Shown: positions 1 to 33,504 of the stretch, piece by piece | Layout of the letters: every line of letters begins with the position of its first letter | How positions within the stretch are numbered: position 1 is the stretch's first letter | DNA from: Rhodospirillaceae bacterium | GTDB lineage: Bacteria; Pseudomonadota; Alphaproteobacteria; Azospirillales; Azospirillaceae | DNA: 41,027 nucleotides | NCBI GenBank assembly: GCA_029267445.1 | Contig: JAJUIU010000031.1 | Span: 1 to 41,027, forward strand | Reading direction: 5' to 3' | Translations under genes and position numbers: made by a program | Notes under the pieces: generated by a model | Told to the model about the DNA's origin: nothing | Database searches by the model: none | Seen by the model: the letters and a program-made list of their open reading frames with translations, nothing else

Positions 1-3000
1 GGGCGGCGGGCGGGTCCGCCGGGCCAGCCGCCACGGCCGGTGCGCCCAAGGCGACGGCGGCGCGCGCGGGCTCCGCCATCGCCGCCGACTCCCCGCCGGG
101 CAGGAAGCCGATGGCGATCATGTGCCGCTCGATCACCTCCCCGATGGCGGCCAGCAGGGAGGGGACGTAACGCCCGTCCATCCAATGGCCGCCGCGCGGG
201 TCGAACACGGCCTTCAGCTCCTCCACCACGAAGGAAACGTCGCCGCCGCGCCGGAACACGGCCGAAACCATGCGCGTCAGCGCCACGGTCCAGGCGTAGT
301 GTTCCATGTTCTTGGAGTTGATGAAGACCTCGAACGGGCGGCGGCGCCCGTCCTGCAGGATGTCGTTGAGGGTGATGTAGAGGGCGTGGTCGCTGTCCGG
401 CCAGCGGATCTTGTAGGTCTGGCCCGGCAACGCCTCCGGCCGGGCGAGCGGCTGGGTCATGTAGACGACCGCACTGTCGGCCGGCGCCTCCGCCGGCGGC
501 GCCGGCTTCGCCTTCGCCTTGGCCGGCTTGTCCTCCGGCTTGGCGACCGACAGGACCGCACCCGTCACCGGGTTCGGCCGGTATGTCGTGCAACCCTTGC
601 AGCCCAGCTCGTAGGCCTGGAGGTAGACGTCCTTGAAGGCCGCGAAGGGCAGATCCTCCGGGCAGTTGATGGTTTTGGAGATGCTGCTGTCGACGTATTT
701 CTGGGCGGCCGCCTGCATCACCACATGGGCGCTGGGGGCGAGGCTCTGCGCGTCCACGAAGGCGTCGGTCAGGGGCGCTTCGGGCCCGAACATCTCCCGA
801 TAGAGGGCATAGGCGGCGTCCCGCACCCGTTCCGTCCGGCGGCTGCCGTCGGGCATCAGCACCGCGCGCTCGTACTCGTAGGCGAACACGGGCTCGATCC
901 CGGAGGAGACGTTACCGGCGAACAGGCTGATCGTGCCGGTGGGCGCGATGGAGGTGAGCAGCGCGTTGCGGATGCCGTGAGCGGATATGGCATCGCGCAC
1001 GGCTTGCGGCAGGGCCTGGACGCCCGGCCGCGCCAGGAACGCGTCCCGGTCGAACAGGGGGAAGGCGCCCTTCTCCGCCGCCAGCTCCGCCGAGGTGAGA
1101 TAGGCGCGGTCGCGCAGGGCCTTCAGCCAGAGTTCGGTCAGGCGGACCGCCTTCTCCGTCCCGTAGCGCACGCCGCACATGATCAGCGCGTCGGCGAGCC
1201 CCGTGACGCCGAGGCCGATGCGCCGCTTGGCCCTGGCCTCCCGCGCCTGGGCCTCCAGCGCGAAGCGGGACACGTCCACCACATTGTCCATCATGCGCAC
1301 GGCCAGCGGCACCACCCGCTCCAGCTCCGCCATGTCGAGCTCGGCCCGGGGGCTGAACGGCTCCCGCACCAGGGCCGCGATATTGACGGAGCCGAGCAGG
1401 CAGGCGCCGTACGGGGGCAGGGGCTGTTCGCCGCAGTTGTGCACGATCATCCCGTTAGCGGCGAAGGCGTTCACACCGGGGATGCGGACGTCGAAGACCT
1501 CCTCCTCCCCGTCAGGCACGATCTCCGCCACCTCCGCCGTCCAGCGCTCGCGGTTCAGCGCGCGCTTGTAGGCGGACAGCGCGGATTTCAGGCGCAACGC
1601 CTTGTCCGTGTCGGCGAAGCCGATCCGGTCGGCGAAGGCGGCAACATTCTCCCGCGCGATGACCAGCTCATGGTCGGCGGAACACAGATACTCGCGGCTG
1701 CCGCCCCGTCCGTCGGGGAGTAGTCGGGGGCCGGCCGGGCGGCGATCCGCGAAGATCGTCGAGACGATGCCGAGCCGCAACAGCATCCGCTGCACCGCGC
1801 GCAGACGGCCGAGGTCGCTCTGCGCCAGCCGGACGCTGACACCCTTGCGCTGATCGCCCTGCACGCTGCCGTCCGCGTCGAACAGGCCGCGCAGGAAACC
1901 CGCCTGGAAGGCGCTTCCGGCGCGCTCGATGGCCGGCGTCACGTCCTTGGCGCCGGGGCGCAAGCCATAGGCGGCGGCCAGATGCTTCAGGCCGCCGGGG
2001 GCCATGCGATACTCGTCGCGTCCGGCGACGGGTATCCAGCCGGTGAAATCGGCCCGGTGCGGCAGTCCGCGCGCCGCCGTCTCCGCCGCCGCCATCACGC
2101 CGTGGACGCCAAGCGGCGGACCGCCATTGACCGCGAGCGGCGGAAGCCAGACGGACAGCACGGCCTTGTCCGCCTTCAGCGTGCCGTCGCCGACCAGCAG
2201 ACCCAGCAGATAGCCTTCGTCCGCGCCGTCGGTCCGTCCATCCGGGCCGGGCCATTCCCGCGCCGTGTCCGCGCGGTTCAGGCGGATCAGGTCGCCGGGG
2301 CGCAGATCGCCGAGGGCGACCCACTCCTCCGTCTCCCTGTAGCGGGTCCGGGCCGCGACGCGGCGAACCGGATGGTCGGCCGTCCCCCGCAGCTCCAGCC
2401 CCTCCGCCGTGCGCAGGCGCAGGACCGGCTTGCGGCCGGTGGCGAAGAACCCGGTGTCGTCCGCGCGCCATGGGGCGCCATGCACCAGGGCGGTGAAGGG
2501 ACGCCCCACCAGCTCCGCGACCTGGCGGGGGCCGTCCACGGTGCAGACCCAGGTGTCGGCGGTGACGCAGGGGTTCGTCGCGGAGATCGTCTCGCAATAG
2601 GCGAGGTTGTTCTGCTGGTTGATGCGGTCGATGAAGATCACGCCGGGCTCGGCGTAATCGTATGTCGCCCGCATGATGCGGTCCCACAGGTCGCGGGCGC
2701 GCAACGTCCGGAAGGTGCGGCCGCCGAACACGAGGTCCCAGTCCCGGTCCTCCTTCACCGCCGCCATGAAGGCGTCGGTCACCAGGACGGACAGGTTGAA
2801 CATGCGCAGGCGCCCCGGCTCGCGCTTGGCGTCGATGAAGATCTCGATGTCCGGATGGTCGCAGCGCAGGGTCGCCATCATGGCGCCCCGGCGGGACCCG
2901 GCACTCATGATCGTGCGGCACATGCCGTCCCACACATCCATGAAGCTGACGGGGCCGGAGGCGTCGGCCCCCACGCCCGCCACCGGGGCGCCCTTGGGCC

Positions 3001-3400
3001 GCAGGGTGGAGAAGTCGTACCCGATGCCGCCGCCGTGCTGCATCGTCAGGGCGGCTTCGCGCAGATGCTCGAAGATGCCGCCCATGTCGTCCGGGATCGT
3101 GCCCATGACGAAGCAGTTGAACAGGGTCACCGACCGGTCGGTACCCGCCCCCGCCAGGATGCGGCCTGCAGGCAGGAAGCGGAAGCCGTCCAGCGCCGAC
3201 AGGAACCTGTCCGTCCAGGCGGCGGGGTCCGCCTCCGCCCCGGCGAGGGCGGCGGCCACGCGCCGCCACGTGTCGGTGACGCCCGTGTCCAGCGGCGTGC
3301 CGTCCGGCCGCTTGAACCGGTATTTCATGTCCCAGATCTGGCGGGAGATCGCGGCCAGCGCGGGTTCGCCGCCAGTCCGGGAAACGGGTCCGTCCGCCAT
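1..3400 (-). CDS. nrdJ: Adenosylcobalamin-dependent (class II) ribonucleotide reductase, intein-containing, C-terminus outside window
   Basis: Reduces ribonucleotides to deoxyribonucleotides in the cytoplasm using adenosylcobalamin, so it works with or without oxygen. The frame is open from the ATG at 3400 (GGAGG 4 bases upstream) to the window edge: 1133 codons, of which 378 are an intein (2569-1436). Host segments read as the class II family: an N-terminal part with FNCFVMG and GGGIGYDFS, then ISATNP before the intein and CGEQPLPPYGACLLGS after it, then IAPTGTIS, the active-site loop. NPCGE holds the thiyl-radical Cys (known from NrdA/NrdJ). I translated the intein and the whole downstream host part base by base and found no frameshift or stop. 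The distal part (about 500-1) carries an Ala/Pro/Lys linker followed by the start of a C-terminal domain. The AdoCbl source may be the PduO gene at 22944-23534. Identification is near certain. Confidence 0.96.
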   Translation of the reverse strand, partial: MADGPVSRTGGEPALAAISRQIWDMKYRFKRPDGTPLDTGVTDTWRRVAAALAGAEADPAAWTDRFLSALDGFRFLPAGRILAGAGTDRSVTLFNCFVMGTIPDDMGGIFEHLREAALTMQHGGGIGYDFSTLRPKGAPVAGVGADASGPVSFMDVWDGMCRTIMSAGSRRGAMMATLRCDHPDIEIFIDAKREPGRLRMFNLSVLVTDAFMAAVKEDRDWDLVFGGRTFRTLRARDLWDRIMRATYDYAEPGVIFIDRINQQNNLAYCETISATNPCVTADTWVCTVDGPRQVAELVGRPFTALVHGAPWRADDTGFFATGRKPVLRLRTAEGLELRGTADHPVRRVAARTRYRETEEWVALGDLRPGDLIRLNRADTAREWPGPDGRTDGADEGYLLGLLVGDGTLKADKAVLSVWLPPLAVNGGPPLGVHGVMAAAETAARGLPHRADFTGWIPVAGRDEYRMAPGGLKHLAAAYGLRPGAKDVTPAIERAGSAFQAGFLRGLFDADGSVQGDQRKGVSVRLAQSDLGRLRAVQRMLLRLGIVSTIFADRRPAGPRLLPDGRGGSREYLCSADHELVIARENVAAFADRIGFADTDKALRLKSALSAYKRALNRERWTAEVAEIVPDGEEEVFDVRIPGVNAFAANGMIVHNCGEQPLPPYGACLLGSVNIAALVREPFSPRAELDMAELERVVPLAVRMMDNVVDVSRFALEAQAREARAKRRIGLGVTGLADALIMCGVRYGTEKAVRLTELWLKALRDRAYLTSAELAAEKGAFPLFDRDAFLARPGVQALPQAVRDAISAHGIRNALLTSIAPTGTISLFAGNVSSGIEPVFAYEYERAVLMPDGSRRTERVRDAAYALYREMFGPEAPLTDAFVDAQSLAPSAHVVMQAAAQKYVDSSISKTINCPEDLPFAAFKDVYLQAYELGCKGCTTYRPNPVTGAVLSVAKPEDKPAKAKAKPAPPAEAPADSAVVYMTQPLARPEALPGQTYKIRWPDSDHALYITLNDILQDGRRRPFEVFINSKNMEHYAWTVALTRMVSAVFRRGGDVSFVVEELKAVFDPRGGHWMDGRYVPSLLAAIGEVIERHMIAIGFLPGGESAAMAEPARAAVALGAPAVAAGPADPPAA
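1436..2569 (-). mobile_element. In-frame intein with LAGLIDADG homing endonuclease inside nrdJ
   Basis: 378 codons inserted between host ISATNP and CGEQPLPPYG. All splicing blocks are visible. Block A begins at Cys1 (CVTADTWVCTVDG). Block B has T63-A-D-H66 (GTADHP). Block F reads VFDVRIPGVNAF. Block G ends NGMIVHN with His377 and Asn378, and the host +1 residue is Cys. The endonuclease motifs are block C, EGYLLGLLVGDGTL (Asp128), and block E, GFLRGLFDADGSV (Asp231/Asp233), both with their acidic residues, so the homing enzyme may be active. Splicing would restore the host NPCGE motif, whose Cys is both the splicing nucleophile and the radical-bearing residue of the reductase. Base composition and codon use look like the host, which argues against very recent arrival from an AT-rich source. 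Boundaries follow from the Cys1 / His-Asn / Cys+1 rule and the host alignment. Confidence 0.95.
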
Positions 3401-4883: not shown

Positions 4884-7571
4884 ATGCTCAGCGAACAGCC
4901 CCCGGTCGATCTCAGCGTCTGCGCCCGCGAACCGATCCATATCCCCGGTTCCATCCAGCCACATGGCGCCCTGCTGGCCGTGCGCCCCGGCGACGGCATG
5001 ATCGTCCAGGCCAGTGCCAACACGGGACAGGTGTTCGGACTGGAGCCCGAGGAACTGCTGGGCCGGCCACTGGCCGACGGGATCGGCGCCGACCTCGCGG
5101 CCCAGGTGATGGCCACGGCCATCGAGGGGCCGAAACCGGACTGCAGGCACCTGTCCGGGATCGCCCGGCAGGATGCGCCGGGCTGGCTCTGCGCCCACCG
5201 CAAAGCCGGCCGGATCATCGTCGAGTTCGAACCCGACCGCGGGGCGCCCATCGCCGTCGCCCTCGATCCGGCGGGGCTCGCCGGGCTGACGGCGGAGGCG
5301 AACCTCTTCAAGCTGTGCCAGAAGGCGGCCGATCTCGTCCGCGCCACCACCGGCTATGACCGGGTGATGCTGTACCGGTTCCACCCCGACTGGACCGGCG
5401 AGGTGATCGGGGAGGCGCGCAAACCTGATTCCGTCCCGTATCGGGGGCTGCGCTATCCGGCCAGCGACATCCCGGAGCAGGCCCGGCGGCTTTACCTGGA
5501 GTGCCAGATCCGCGTGATCGCCGACGTGCGTGGGGCACAGGTGCCGGTCATCCCGCGCGAGGACCCGGACACGGGCGCCCCGCTGGACATGGGCTGGGGC
5601 CAGCTCCGCACCATGTCGCCCATCCATGTCGAATATCTGTCGAACATGGGCGTCGGCGCCTCGCTGACGGCGTCGATCGAGGTGGCGGGACGCCTCTGGG
5701 GCCTGATCGCCTGCCATCACGACAGCCGCAAGGCCGCCCCGCCGCCGGTCCGCGACGCCGTCCGGCGTGTCGCCGACACGCTTGGCGCGCGGATCGAGGC
5801 GCTGGAGACCGAAGCCGCCCGCGTGGCCGAGACAGAGGGCTCGAAGCGGTCGCTGCGCCTGATCGAACAGATCCGCCAGCAGTCCAACATCGCCATGGCG
5901 CTGCTGTCCGGCGATCTCGGCATCGGGCATTTCCTGCGGGCCGACGGGTCCGCCATCATCGCGGGGGACGCGGCGGCGACGGCGGGCTCCGCACCCGACG
6001 TGCGCCGGCTGCGTGAGATCATCGACGCCATCGTCCGGCATCAAGGGGCCGGCGTCTTCGCCTCCGCCGCGCTGTCGGCCGACCTCGGCCTGCCGCCGGC
6101 GGGCAACGGCATCGGGGCGGGCGTTCTGGCCCTGGTCCTGTCGACCGACCCGGTCGTCGCCATCGCCTGCTTCGCCAACGAGCTGGTGCAGGAGGTGAAC
6201 TGGGGCGGCGACCCCAGCAAGCCCGCCGTCATCGACCCCGTGTCCCACCGCCTGTCGCCGCGCAAGAGCTTCGAGCTCTGGCGGGAGGTGGTGAAGGGCA
6301 CCTCACGGGCATGGCGGCCGCTCGACATCGCCACCATGCGGCACCTCGGCGACCATCTGGCGGCCGTGACCACGGCGCCGGTGCTGCGCCAGCAGCTGGC
6401 CGACGGCATCCGTTCGCTGCTGTCGAGCGCCCGCGACCGGCAGGCGCTGATGCGGGAGTTCCTGGACGCGACGGACGAGGGCATCGTCACCTATCTGGTC
6501 ACCGAGCGGAAGGAGGGGGCGGGACACCCCGTCGTCCATACGGTGAACCGGCGCGTGCGCAACCTGTTCGAGCTGTCGGACGATTTCGACGGCCCGTCCA
6601 GCCTGACGGACCTGTTCGTCCGCTGCGGCCTGCCCCTGTCGCTGCTGGAGCCGGGTGCACCCGACGTGCAGGAATGCGAGGTCTGGACGCCATCGCGCGG
6701 CCGGCTGGTGCTGCGGGTGACGCGCCACAACATCATGGGGCTCGAGACGGAGATGGGCCGCACCGGCGCCACCCTCTACGCCCTTATCGACATCACGGAG
6801 TTCCGCGAGGTCGAGGAGGCGCTGCGGGCGGTGCGCGACAAGGCGCTGGAGGGGGAGCGGGCCCGGACGGCCTTCCTGGCCGGGGTCAGCCACGAGCTGC
6901 GCACGCCGCTGAACGCGATCATCGGTTTCGCCGAGATGCTCCAGTCCGAAGCATTCGGGCCGCTCGGCAACGACCGCTACAAGGGCTATGTCAGCGACAT
7001 CGCCCAGGCGGGCCGGCACCTGCTGTCGCTCGTCACCGACATCCTGGAGTCCGCCCGACTGAACTCCGCCGCCGCGCAGATGACGGAGACCCTGGTCGAC
7101 CTGCGCGCGGAGGTGGAGGCGGCGCTGTCCATGCTGTCGGGGCAGATCGAGGCGGCGGGCCTGGCCGTCACGATCCGGGGCGCGGATGCCATCGTGCGCG
7201 CCGACGCGCGCGGGCTGCGACAGGCGGCGCTGAACCTTTTGTCGAACGCGGTGAAGTTCACGCCGGCGGGCGGGCGGGTCGACTGCGTGATCGGCGCCGA
7301 CCCGTCGGGCGAGGTCTGGCTCGAGGTCACGGACACCGGCATCGGCATCGCCGACGAGGACCTGCCGAAGCTGTTCCAGCCGTTCCAGCGAGCCGGTGGC
7401 GGGCAGGCGGCGAAGACGCCGGGAACCGGACTCGGCCTGTCGTTGGTCAAGGCCATCGCGGAGCTGCATGGCGGCCGCGTGGCGCTCAACAGCCGGCTCG
7501 GGCACGGGACGACCGTGCGGCTGATCCTGCCGTCCTGGCGGGTGGAGCGCGCGGCGGAGACCGTGTCGTGA
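4884..7571 (+). CDS. bphP: Bacteriophytochrome sensor histidine kinase
   Basis: Red/far-red photoreceptor that binds biliverdin and controls a C-terminal histidine kinase. Order in the 895 residues: N-terminal Cys13 followed by REPIHIPGSIQPHG, the biliverdin-attachment position of bacteriophytochromes; PAS (about 20-125); GAF (about 140-310) with YPASDIP at 191-197 and the chromophore-pocket His248 and His278/279; PHY (about 325-510) with WGG at 440-442 and the PRKSF tongue motif at 459-463; a further PAS-like segment (about 520-640); HisKA with His670 in GVSHELRTPLNAIIGF; HATPase with N box NLLSNAVKF (784-792), DTGIGI and GTGLGLSLVK. The ATG is 35 bases after a palindrome; its ribosome site is weak (GGAAGG, too far away). 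The stop overlaps the GTG of bphO. No response regulator gene is adjacent, so the phosphorylation partner lies elsewhere. It is oriented opposite to its neighbours plsC and the DUF218 gene. Confidence 0.96.
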   Translation: MLSEQPPVDLSVCAREPIHIPGSIQPHGALLAVRPGDGMIVQASANTGQVFGLEPEELLGRPLADGIGADLAAQVMATAIEGPKPDCRHLSGIARQDAPGWLCAHRKAGRIIVEFEPDRGAPIAVALDPAGLAGLTAEANLFKLCQKAADLVRATTGYDRVMLYRFHPDWTGEVIGEARKPDSVPYRGLRYPASDIPEQARRLYLECQIRVIADVRGAQVPVIPREDPDTGAPLDMGWGQLRTMSPIHVEYLSNMGVGASLTASIEVAGRLWGLIACHHDSRKAAPPPVRDAVRRVADTLGARIEALETEAARVAETEGSKRSLRLIEQIRQQSNIAMALLSGDLGIGHFLRADGSAIIAGDAAATAGSAPDVRRLREIIDAIVRHQGAGVFASAALSADLGLPPAGNGIGAGVLALVLSTDPVVAIACFANELVQEVNWGGDPSKPAVIDPVSHRLSPRKSFELWREVVKGTSRAWRPLDIATMRHLGDHLAAVTTAPVLRQQLADGIRSLLSSARDRQALMREFLDATDEGIVTYLVTERKEGAGHPVVHTVNRRVRNLFELSDDFDGPSSLTDLFVRCGLPLSLLEPGAPDVQECEVWTPSRGRLVLRVTRHNIMGLETEMGRTGATLYALIDITEFREVEEALRAVRDKALEGERARTAFLAGVSHELRTPLNAIIGFAEMLQSEAFGPLGNDRYKGYVSDIAQAGRHLLSLVTDILESARLNSAAAQMTETLVDLRAEVEAALSMLSGQIEAAGLAVTIRGADAIVRADARGLRQAALNLLSNAVKFTPAGGRVDCVIGADPSGEVWLEVTDTGIGIADEDLPKLFQPFQRAGGGQAAKTPGTGLGLSLVKAIAELHGGRVALNSRLGHGTTVRLILPSWRVERAAETVS

Positions 7572-10770: not shown

Positions 10771-13446
10771 TCAGAACCGGTCGAGCAGGCGGTCGATGTA
10801 ATCCAGCTCCTGGCGGGGGCGGTTCTGTTCGCCCGAGCGGCGGCGCAGCTCGTCCAGGATTTCGCGGGCGCGCTGGACGTCCGCCTCCTCCGGGATCTTG
10901 ACCTGCTCGCCGCTGGACATGCCGTTGCCCGGAAGCTGGCGGCCCAGCGGGTCGCGGCCCGGCAGGCGGCCCATGCGGGGCTGCTGCCCCGGCTGCATGC
11001 CGGGCTGGGCCATCATCTGCTGCATCATCTGCTGCGCCATGTCCTGGAGGCCCTGCTGCAGCTCGTCCAGGGCTTGACCCTGCGGCGGCACCGCCTGGCC
11101 GGGGGTGCCCTGCTGGAGCGCCTGCTCGGCGTCGCGCATGGAGCGTTCGGCCCGGCCGAGGGGGCGCGGGATCTCCCCGCCCCTCTCACCGAACTGGCGC
11201 ATCAGGTCCCCCAGCTGGCGCCGCAGCGCCTCCTGCCGCGCCGCCATCTCCCCGGCGTCGCCCGGCTCGCCGGCACCCTGGCCCGGCTGACCGCCCGGTC
11301 CCTGCATCGGATTGCCGCCCTGCTGCGGCGCACGGCCCTGGCGGGCGGGGCCCTGCTGACCCTGTTGGCCCTGCTGCTGCTGGCCCTGCTGGCCCTGTTC
11401 ACCGCCCTGGGGTTCCTGCGCGCCATCCTGCTGGGACTGGCGGAAGGTCTCGTCCATCAGCTCCTGCTGGCGCTTGGCGAGGTCCTGTAGCTGGCGCATC
11501 GCCTCGGCCATCTGTTCGGCCTGCTGGGCGTCCTGCTGGGCCATCTGGCCGGACTGCAGGCTCTCCAGCATCTGCTGGAGCTGCGACAGCATCTGCCGCG
11601 CCGCCTCCCGCGAGCCGGTCTGCGACAGCTCCCGCATCTGCTCCAGCATCCGCTCCAGGTCCGAACGGTCGAGCGTCTGGGTGTTCGGGTCCATCGGCAT
11701 GTCGGGCATCTGCTGCCCGTTCTGCATGGCCTGGCGCATCCGCTCCTCGAGCGCGTCGAGGAAGGCCTGCATCGCCTGCTCGAGCTCCCGCATGAGCTGG
11801 TCGATCTCGGTCTCCGAGGCGTCGTTGTCCAGCGCCTCCATCAACCGCCGCTGCGCCTCGCGCAGCTCGCGCTCGGCCAGCGACAGGCCGCCATCCTCGA
11901 TGCGGAGCGCCGTCTCCCACAGGGTCTGCTGGACCTGCGGGATGGCCTGCGGCTCCCGGTCCATCATCAGCCGGTTGACGGCCGAGCGCAGGGCCAGGAA
12001 GGCGGCGAGGTCGTCGCCGAAGCTGCCGGGGCGGGCCGAAATCTCGGCCAGCGACCGGGCCACGGGCTCGCGCAGCGGGTCGCCGCCGAGGGTGAGCTTC
12101 TTGCGTTCGTCGATGATGGCGCGGGCGACCGGATGGTTGAAGGTCCGCTCCGGCAGGGTGAAGGTCTGGTCGGCGCTGAAGCCGGTCTGCCCGGCGGCGT
12201 CCGTCGCCTCCAGCCGGATCGTCACGTCCAGCCCGGCCCAGGGATGCGGCGTCAGGTCATGGAAGCCGATGCCCTGCGCCTCGCGCGGGGCGGCACCCGG
12301 CAGCGGCAGCGGCAGGACGATGGGCGTCTTGTCGATGATGTCCGGCACCGGGGTGATCAGGCGCACGGTGGCCGTGGCCAGCGTGACGCCGTAGTCGTCG
12401 GCGGCCGTGTATTCGATCCGGGTGCTGAAGCGCTCCGTCGCGGTCGGGGCGGTCCGGAAGGCGATGCCGGGCGCCTGATCGGGCACCACGACGATGTCCC
12501 AGCCCTCCAGCGTCCGCCCGCCCTGGCGCACGCCGATCCGGGTGCCGGCGGTGATCGGGGCGCTGACCTGCCAGGCGTCGCCGCCGACAGCCTCGAACGC
12601 GACCTCCTGACCGTCGTTCGCCACCAGCTTGGGCGTGCCGTAGCCGCCGGTGACCTTGGCCAGCAGGGTGCTGCCGGCCGGGATGGGCACGGCGGCGCGC
12701 GGGGCCTCCGGCTCCTTGTCGGCCACGGGTGAGGCGCCCGCGACCGTCGTGGGAACCGGGGCCGCCTGACGGGTCAGGAAGATGGGGGGGAGGCCGGTGT
12801 AGTCGGGCGGGGTGACCCACACATCCAGCGCCACCGGCCCGGTGATGCCGCCGAGCGCCACGCGCGGAGCCAGCGCGGAACCGAGCCGCTGGCCCCAGTC
12901 GCCCCAGGCGACCGTGCCGGCGGTCGCCAGCAGCAGCAGCACGGCGGCGCGCAGGGCCCAGGGATCGCGGGCGGCGAGGTTGGGGTGCGGGGCGTTGACG
13001 GTCAGGTCCTTCGCCTGCCGCCGGGCCCGCTCCTGCGCCGCGCGCCAGAGGGCGGCCGCATAGGGGTCGCCGGCCCCGGCCATCCGGTCCTTCAGGGTGG
13101 CGAGGGGACGATGGGGCAGCCTGCTGTCCCGCTCGATCCGGCGGCGCGCCTCCGCCACGGTCGGCAGGCGCACGGTGCGGACCCCGACCACCAGGATGGC
13201 GACGAAGGCGGCGACGAAGCCGAGCAGCACCAGCAGGTGCAGCCAGCCGGGCAGGCGCTGCGGCACGTCGAGCCAGGCCAGCGCCACGAACAGTCCGGCC
13301 ACGCCGGCGGCGGGCCACAGGGCGGGCCACAAACGCTCCCAGGCGAGCGCCAGGCGCGCGGCGAGCAGCGACAGCGCCGGCTCCTCCGGTCCGCCGGCCT
13401 TACGCCCACCCAGTTCCTTCAGGTCCTTCAGGCGCCTGTCCATCAT
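10771..13446 (-). CDS. DUF4175 / TIGR02302 family membrane protein
   Basis: 891 residues. Two membrane segments close to the N-terminus (about 38-55 and 66-88) and a third near 165-183 (PWALRAAVLLLLATAG) precede a large predicted periplasmic region with beta-rich domains. The C-terminal third is helical and very rich in Gln and Met (repeated QMAQQ, QGQQGQQ and MMQQMM runs between about 570 and 840), ending in ELDYIDRLLDRF. The family is conserved in Alphaproteobacteria and has no established function; its place downstream of argH and lysA recurs there. The gene starts with two adjacent ATGs (13446 and 13443); I use the first. It lies 73 bases after lysA on the same strand, so it is probably the last gene of that operon. 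Confidence 0.88.
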   Translation of the reverse strand: MMDRRLKDLKELGGRKAGGPEEPALSLLAARLALAWERLWPALWPAAGVAGLFVALAWLDVPQRLPGWLHLLVLLGFVAAFVAILVVGVRTVRLPTVAEARRRIERDSRLPHRPLATLKDRMAGAGDPYAAALWRAAQERARRQAKDLTVNAPHPNLAARDPWALRAAVLLLLATAGTVAWGDWGQRLGSALAPRVALGGITGPVALDVWVTPPDYTGLPPIFLTRQAAPVPTTVAGASPVADKEPEAPRAAVPIPAGSTLLAKVTGGYGTPKLVANDGQEVAFEAVGGDAWQVSAPITAGTRIGVRQGGRTLEGWDIVVVPDQAPGIAFRTAPTATERFSTRIEYTAADDYGVTLATATVRLITPVPDIIDKTPIVLPLPLPGAAPREAQGIGFHDLTPHPWAGLDVTIRLEATDAAGQTGFSADQTFTLPERTFNHPVARAIIDERKKLTLGGDPLREPVARSLAEISARPGSFGDDLAAFLALRSAVNRLMMDREPQAIPQVQQTLWETALRIEDGGLSLAERELREAQRRLMEALDNDASETEIDQLMRELEQAMQAFLDALEERMRQAMQNGQQMPDMPMDPNTQTLDRSDLERMLEQMRELSQTGSREAARQMLSQLQQMLESLQSGQMAQQDAQQAEQMAEAMRQLQDLAKRQQELMDETFRQSQQDGAQEPQGGEQGQQGQQQQGQQGQQGPARQGRAPQQGGNPMQGPGGQPGQGAGEPGDAGEMAARQEALRRQLGDLMRQFGERGGEIPRPLGRAERSMRDAEQALQQGTPGQAVPPQGQALDELQQGLQDMAQQMMQQMMAQPGMQPGQQPRMGRLPGRDPLGRQLPGNGMSSGEQVKIPEEADVQRAREILDELRRRSGEQNRPRQELDYIDRLLDRF

Positions 13447-33418: not shown

Positions 33419-33504
33419 GCCCCCGTGGCGAAATGGTAGACGCGGCAGACTCAAAATCTGTTGCCGGCAACGGCGTGTTGGTTCGAGTCCGACCGGGGGC
33501 ACCA
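33419..33504 (+). tRNA. tRNA-Leu, anticodon CAA
   Basis: 86 bases including an encoded CCA. Acceptor GCCCCCG pairs with CGGGGGC, anticodon loop CTCAAAA gives CAA (reads UUG), anticodon stem GCAGA/TCTGT, long class II variable arm, T-arm with GGTTCGAGTCC. No integrase or direct repeat of its 3' end is visible nearby. Confidence 0.97.

Follow-up and report, generated by a model that had tools for sequence, protein, structure and literature searches.

The nrdJ locus

The window, by which we mean the whole stretch of DNA analysed here, is contig C114 of 41,027 bases from a genome of 4.23 Mb in 174 contigs. Its first 3.4 kb are filled by the open reading frame of nrdJ, the 3' end of which is lost at the contig edge (Table 1). 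This frame encodes 1133 residues with the intein, and the spliced product, or extein, has at least 755 residues, since the contig ends within the frame. The joined extein was assigned to NrdJ_Z (TIGR02504) with 543 bits against a cut-off of 400. When the extein is aligned with NrdJ of T. maritima (1xje/1xjk), the interrupted motif NPCGE corresponds to residues 320-324 and Cys+1 to Cys322, the radical cysteine of that enzyme. In addition to Cys322, the extein keeps the equivalents of Cys134, Asn320, Glu324 and Cys333, the other active-site residues of T. maritima NrdJ.

A bacteriophytochrome histidine kinase (PAS_2, GAF, PHY, HisKA and HATPase_c; 4884-7571, forward strand) lies close to nrdJ and an acyltransferase, and an 891-residue DUF4175 protein of unknown function (full-length match, E 2.9e-268) is encoded at 10771-13446 on the reverse strand. 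An Rfam scan of the window found no cobalamin riboswitch before nrdJ, and a tRNA was its sole match.

Table 1. Positions of nrdJ, its intein and other features in the window
Feature	Position	Strand	Basis
nrdJ, class II (adenosylcobalamin-dependent) ribonucleotide reductase	2..3400	-	TIGR02504, E 9.5e-163; T. maritima NrdJ 1xje match, E 5e-76
Intein, 378 residues, Cys1 to Asn378	1436..2569	-	Stop-free translation, Pfam, AlphaFold2 model, structural matches
N-terminal part of predicted HINT splicing domain, intein residues 1-110: Cys1, block B TADH (T63, H66)	2240..2569	-	Pfam, family alignment, model
Predicted LAGLIDADG homing endonuclease domain, intein residues 111-339: GYLLGLLVGDG (D128), FLRGLFDADG (D233)	1553..2239	-	Pfam LAGLIDADG_3 at 221-317; I-Tsp061I structural match
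C-terminal part of predicted HINT domain, intein residues 340-378: block F VFDV (D360), block G HN378	1436..1552	-	Family alignment
Cys+1 codon TGC: predicted splicing nucleophile, then radical-bearing Cys of NPCGE	1433..1435	-	T. maritima Cys322 alignment
tRNA-Leu (CAA), sole tRNA of the window	33419-33504	+	Rfam scan

Anatomy and predicted fold of the intein

A preliminary description of this DNA had placed a 378-residue intein at 1436-2569, at the catalytic cysteine of nrdJ. Its boundaries proved correct to the base, and the translation is stop-free from Cys1 to the terminal His-Asn378. The intein sequence reads CVTADTW...AANGMIVHN and is preceded by the host residues ...ISATNP and followed by CGEQPLPPYGACLLG, so that the reductase is split in frame between NP and CGE. 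The joined (empty) DNA site is ...ACGAACCCC followed directly by TGCGGCGAA..., and the peptide across the spliced junction would be ...ISATNPCGEQPLPPYG.... The class 1 intein residues that had been described are all present, namely Cys1, T63 and H66 of block B (TADH, a TxxH motif), H377-N378 and Cys+1, as are the two acidic LAGLIDADG motifs, LLVGDG (D128) and LFDADG (D233). Pfam recognised both Intein_splicing (E 8.2e-11) and LAGLIDADG_3 (PF14528; E 2.4e-25) above the gathering score. The intein is a single copy, and a second copy was ruled out by a search of the genome contigs.

The AlphaFold2 model, for which 33 aligned family members served as input, had a mean pLDDT of 93.6 and a pTM of 0.92. 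On the one hand, over its whole length (residues 1-378) the model matched the two-domain HINT and LAGLIDADG fold of full-length endonuclease inteins, with Z scores of 26.5 for TliVMA, 26.5 for PI-PfuI and about 24 for PI-SceI. On the other hand, these inteins reside in other host proteins or at other sites, and show 17-19% identity to the window intein in structural alignments. Splicing-only inteins (NpuDnaB, Ssp DnaB, Mtu RecA and Mxe GyrA) were matched at about 1.5-2.2 Å, NpuDnaB at 1.5 Å over 128 residues, and residues 111-339 matched the homing endonuclease I-Tsp061I (Z 17.0). The predicted model and its matches show that the two ends of the insert form a HINT splicing domain around a two-motif LAGLIDADG endonuclease.

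Insertion site and intein family

We collected 38 further full-length relatives by a scan of genome contigs and by searches of related genomes, and all of them lie between NP and the catalytic cysteine. Their hosts are Alpha-, Beta- and Gammaproteobacteria, Synergistota, Bacillota (Desulforudis), WOR-3, Methanomicrobiales and Archaeoglobaceae, with the reservation that many of these records are metagenome bins, in which individual assignments may be wrong. When 385 genomes were drawn evenly from the class, 15 carried the intein, the window's own genome counted.

The proposal that this was a known insertion site is borne out by these relatives and by the bnrdE intein of Bacillus phage SPbeta. 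A published allele that probably shares this site is rir1-b (PMC4071816). Reported from 55 bacteria, 15 halobacteria and 5 other euryarchaea, rir1-b sits like the window intein in the large subunits of ribonucleotide reductases (RNRs) of bacteria and archaea. Its hosts include Rhodanobacter, Desulforudis, Thermovirga and Methanofollis (PMC4071816), and the relatives of these hosts in our set (L023, L025, L046 and L032/L033) carry the window-type intein at the same site. The window intein is alphaproteobacterial, whereas the main text of PMC4071816 never mentions Alphaproteobacteria. Judged by the site and the shared host taxa, and not by the sequences of that study, the family is most likely rir1-b.

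Two further inteins can be compared with that of the window. The nrdJa intein of Azotobacter chroococcum (residues 321-690) also interrupts a class II reductase, is about 370 residues long and contains LAGLIDADG_3, and it was noted as potentially shared with Rhodanobacter (PMC4465626). However, its host is gammaproteobacterial, and the likeness is drawn from its published description. The SPbeta bnrdE intein occupies the homologous site, between NL and CSE before the radical cysteine, but it resides in a class Ib reductase, shows 24% identity and ends in Gly-Asn instead of His-Asn. Carriage of the window intein by a phage or plasmid was considered and rejected, as no close relative was found among 50,697 phage and 72,556 plasmid records, in which the best full-length matches had 24-29% identity. 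The window intein is thus an added member of an already described, widespread allele. Given this and its anatomy, we conclude with high confidence that it is a class 1 intein of full length, equipped with a LAGLIDADG homing endonuclease of two motifs, and that it represents the RNR catalytic-cysteine allele, most likely rir1-b, in Alphaproteobacteria.

Empty sites and lateral movement

The search for empty-site orthologues that the preliminary description had suggested was productive. Among 34 other genomes of the window's bacterial family, 2 carry the intein and 8 lack a window-type nrdJ at the threshold used; in the 23 same-family genomes that were inspected, nrdJ (50-80% identity) is intein-free and NPCGE is joined. 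A total of 29 loci without the insert read ...TNPCGEQPLPP..., with the flanks joined exactly. The insertion site in relatives is conserved in the protein and at 29-37 of 42 bases in the DNA.

When presence of the intein is mapped on a tree of 56 exteins, at least 7 changes are required; the long branches of the distant sequences leave the depth of this tree unsure. In several distant hosts the intein is closer to that of the window than the extein is, with identities of 61 versus 47% in a gammaproteobacterium (L041), 56 versus 36% in a member of Methanoregulaceae (L033) and 52 versus 38% in a member of Archaeoglobaceae (L036). This relation is reversed in Alphaproteobacteria (intein about 60%, extein about 71%).

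The Thiobacillus intein L029 (L029:4001-5131) comes from a metagenome bin, the label of which needs care, and its intein and extein trees draw on the same contig. The intein was placed among gammaproteobacterial inteins (98/97) and the extein with Betaproteobacteria (99), and a single clade of betaproteobacterial inteins was rejected (p-AU 0.0004). From these placements, L029 is a clear case of lateral transfer of the intein. Since the intein and host-gene trees conflict in places, it is well supported that members of the intein family have moved laterally without their host gene.

Within the window's own bacterial family, for which a transfer of the intein was also considered, the intein tree joins the window with L008 (100/94) and rejects a grouping with L007 (p-AU 0.015). 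The extein tree joins the window with L007 (88/88), and does not reject a grouping with L008 (p-AU 0.123); for the three in-family carriers as one extein clade, p-AU was 0.268.

Residence, homing and the state of the endonuclease

The intein has a GC content of 72.6%, compared with 70.6% in the extein and 70.5% in the window, and its GC3 is 0.89. Its codon use, the comparison of which had also been proposed, lies inside the range of the neighbouring genes. Accordingly, the earlier statement of host-like GC content holds, but GC content is not evidence of working homing, for which the preliminary description had taken it as a sign. Better evidence comes from the constraint on the endonuclease and its conserved acidic residues, from empty sites in relatives, and from the disagreement of the intein tree with the extein tree. 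A recent acquisition with foreign composition was ruled out by the host-like GC content and codon use, and these compositional measures are best fitted by an old residence of the intein in the window lineage.

We compared pN/pS between the window and its relatives, noting that these values are rough considering the high dS (0.5-0.9). Against L007, pN/pS was 0.37 in the extein, 0.46 in the splicing domain and 0.34 in the endonuclease, and against L008 it was 0.54 in the endonuclease; the extein values against relatives were 0.35-0.37. In L008, from the same family, the first LAGLIDADG motif has changed from GDG to GDA, and L042, an Actinomycetes bin, has an intein of 280 residues with part of the endonuclease lost. 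These rates are in line with purifying selection having acted on the endonuclease along the lineages of the window and L007, and with a decaying endonuclease in L008. L008 and L042 probably represent stages of decay within the homing cycle.

This observation bears on the possibility that the window intein splices with an inactive endonuclease, being inherited vertically and kept since precise deletion is rare. We regard this as a real but clearly minor possibility. It would accord with the decay seen in L008, with the host-like composition, and with the fact that the two other sampled carriers in the window's family are near relatives by their exteins. However, the window intein has lost neither the acids nor the glycines of its two motifs, its predicted fold is complete, and its endonuclease has a lower pN/pS against L007 than its splicing domain. 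Both splicing by the window intein and cutting by its endonuclease are judged probable from anatomy and selection.

In the proposed mechanism, Cys1 would attack the peptide bond preceding the intein, and the N-extein would be transferred to Cys+1. Asn378, aided by His377, would then cyclise and release the intein, upon which NPCGE would be rejoined and Cys+1 would become the thiyl-radical cysteine. The endonuclease would cut intein-free nrdJ at a very conserved site, and recombination would copy the intein in.

Conserved and deviating residues

In the alignment of full-length members, C1, T10, G13, T63, H66, W83, D360, F369, G373, H377 and N378 are invariant (39 of 39), and D128 and D231 are each kept in 38 of the 39 aligned members. 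The window intein deviates at two positions: residue 370 (codon 1460-1462) is Ala in place of the Asp of 36 of the 38 relatives, and residue 100 (codon 2270-2272) is Ala in place of His, again found in 36 of 38. An extra TDGA stretch at residues 113-116 is common to the window and L008 only among the 39 members. The NpuDnaB intein, the structure of which is known, has Val at position 370, which makes a catalytic role of this position unlikely in the window intein as well. D370 is also absent from the assisting positions named in a review (PMC4031507).

The deviations D370A and H100A, together with two further RNR large subunits in the strain, could be read as signs of a splicing-dead remnant, in which nrdJ yields only precursor or fragments and is tolerated thanks to the other enzymes. 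We consider this extremely improbable: the splicing nucleophiles are all kept, the frame is open, and the extein retains its NrdJ active-site residues and has a pN/pS of 0.35-0.37 against relatives.

Other ribonucleotide reductases and the consequence for the host

As the preliminary description had advised, we searched for another RNR in the strain. Beside the intein-bearing NrdJ, two large subunits without an insert are encoded: a second class II enzyme of the long type, with NPCSE in a 1298-residue frame on contig C28 (L003), and an NrdA-like enzyme, with NLCSE in a 645-residue frame on C50 (L004). Every one of the 15 intein-bearing genomes checked had one or more further RNR large subunits, which rules out that these carriers rely on the intein-bearing nrdJ as their sole RNR. 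Same-family genomes with an empty site or without the whole gene have other RNRs too, indicating that spare RNRs characterise the group and not the intein.

Unspliced NrdJ would almost surely be inactive, because the intein would part the equivalents of Pro321 and Cys322; this is a strong inference, where the preliminary description had called it certain. We also considered conditional splicing, for example by redox state through Cys1 and Cys+1, by which the intein would be a post-translational switch on the class II reductase. The splicing nucleophile is indeed the catalytic cysteine itself, and there is a published example of an intein that senses oxidative stress (PMC6195587). However, no switch-specific residue was found in the window intein, several carriers have Ala, Val or a different residue in place of the N-extein Cys at -9, and the strain encodes two other RNRs. 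We therefore consider such a switch very unlikely. A more specific form of it, in which oxidation of the cysteine or metal binding would block both splicing and activity, so that an accessory B12-dependent reductase matures only under some conditions, is given slightly less credence still. Considering the two other RNRs and the 8 of 34 same-family genomes without the gene, failed splicing need not be lethal. The intein would not necessarily be a gate on dNTP supply, and a failure to splice would not obviously halt DNA synthesis.

Conclusion

In summary, the window intein is an ordinary and well-formed representative of a mobile allele that was already known. This element crosses domains, and it now has one more copy from Alphaproteobacteria that looks intact. 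One bacterial family holds both empty and occupied alleles, and relatives have forms that are decaying or shortened, which makes this set useful for the study of the homing cycle. Additionally, the spare RNRs of the carriers bear on the persistence of an intein in a catalytic site.
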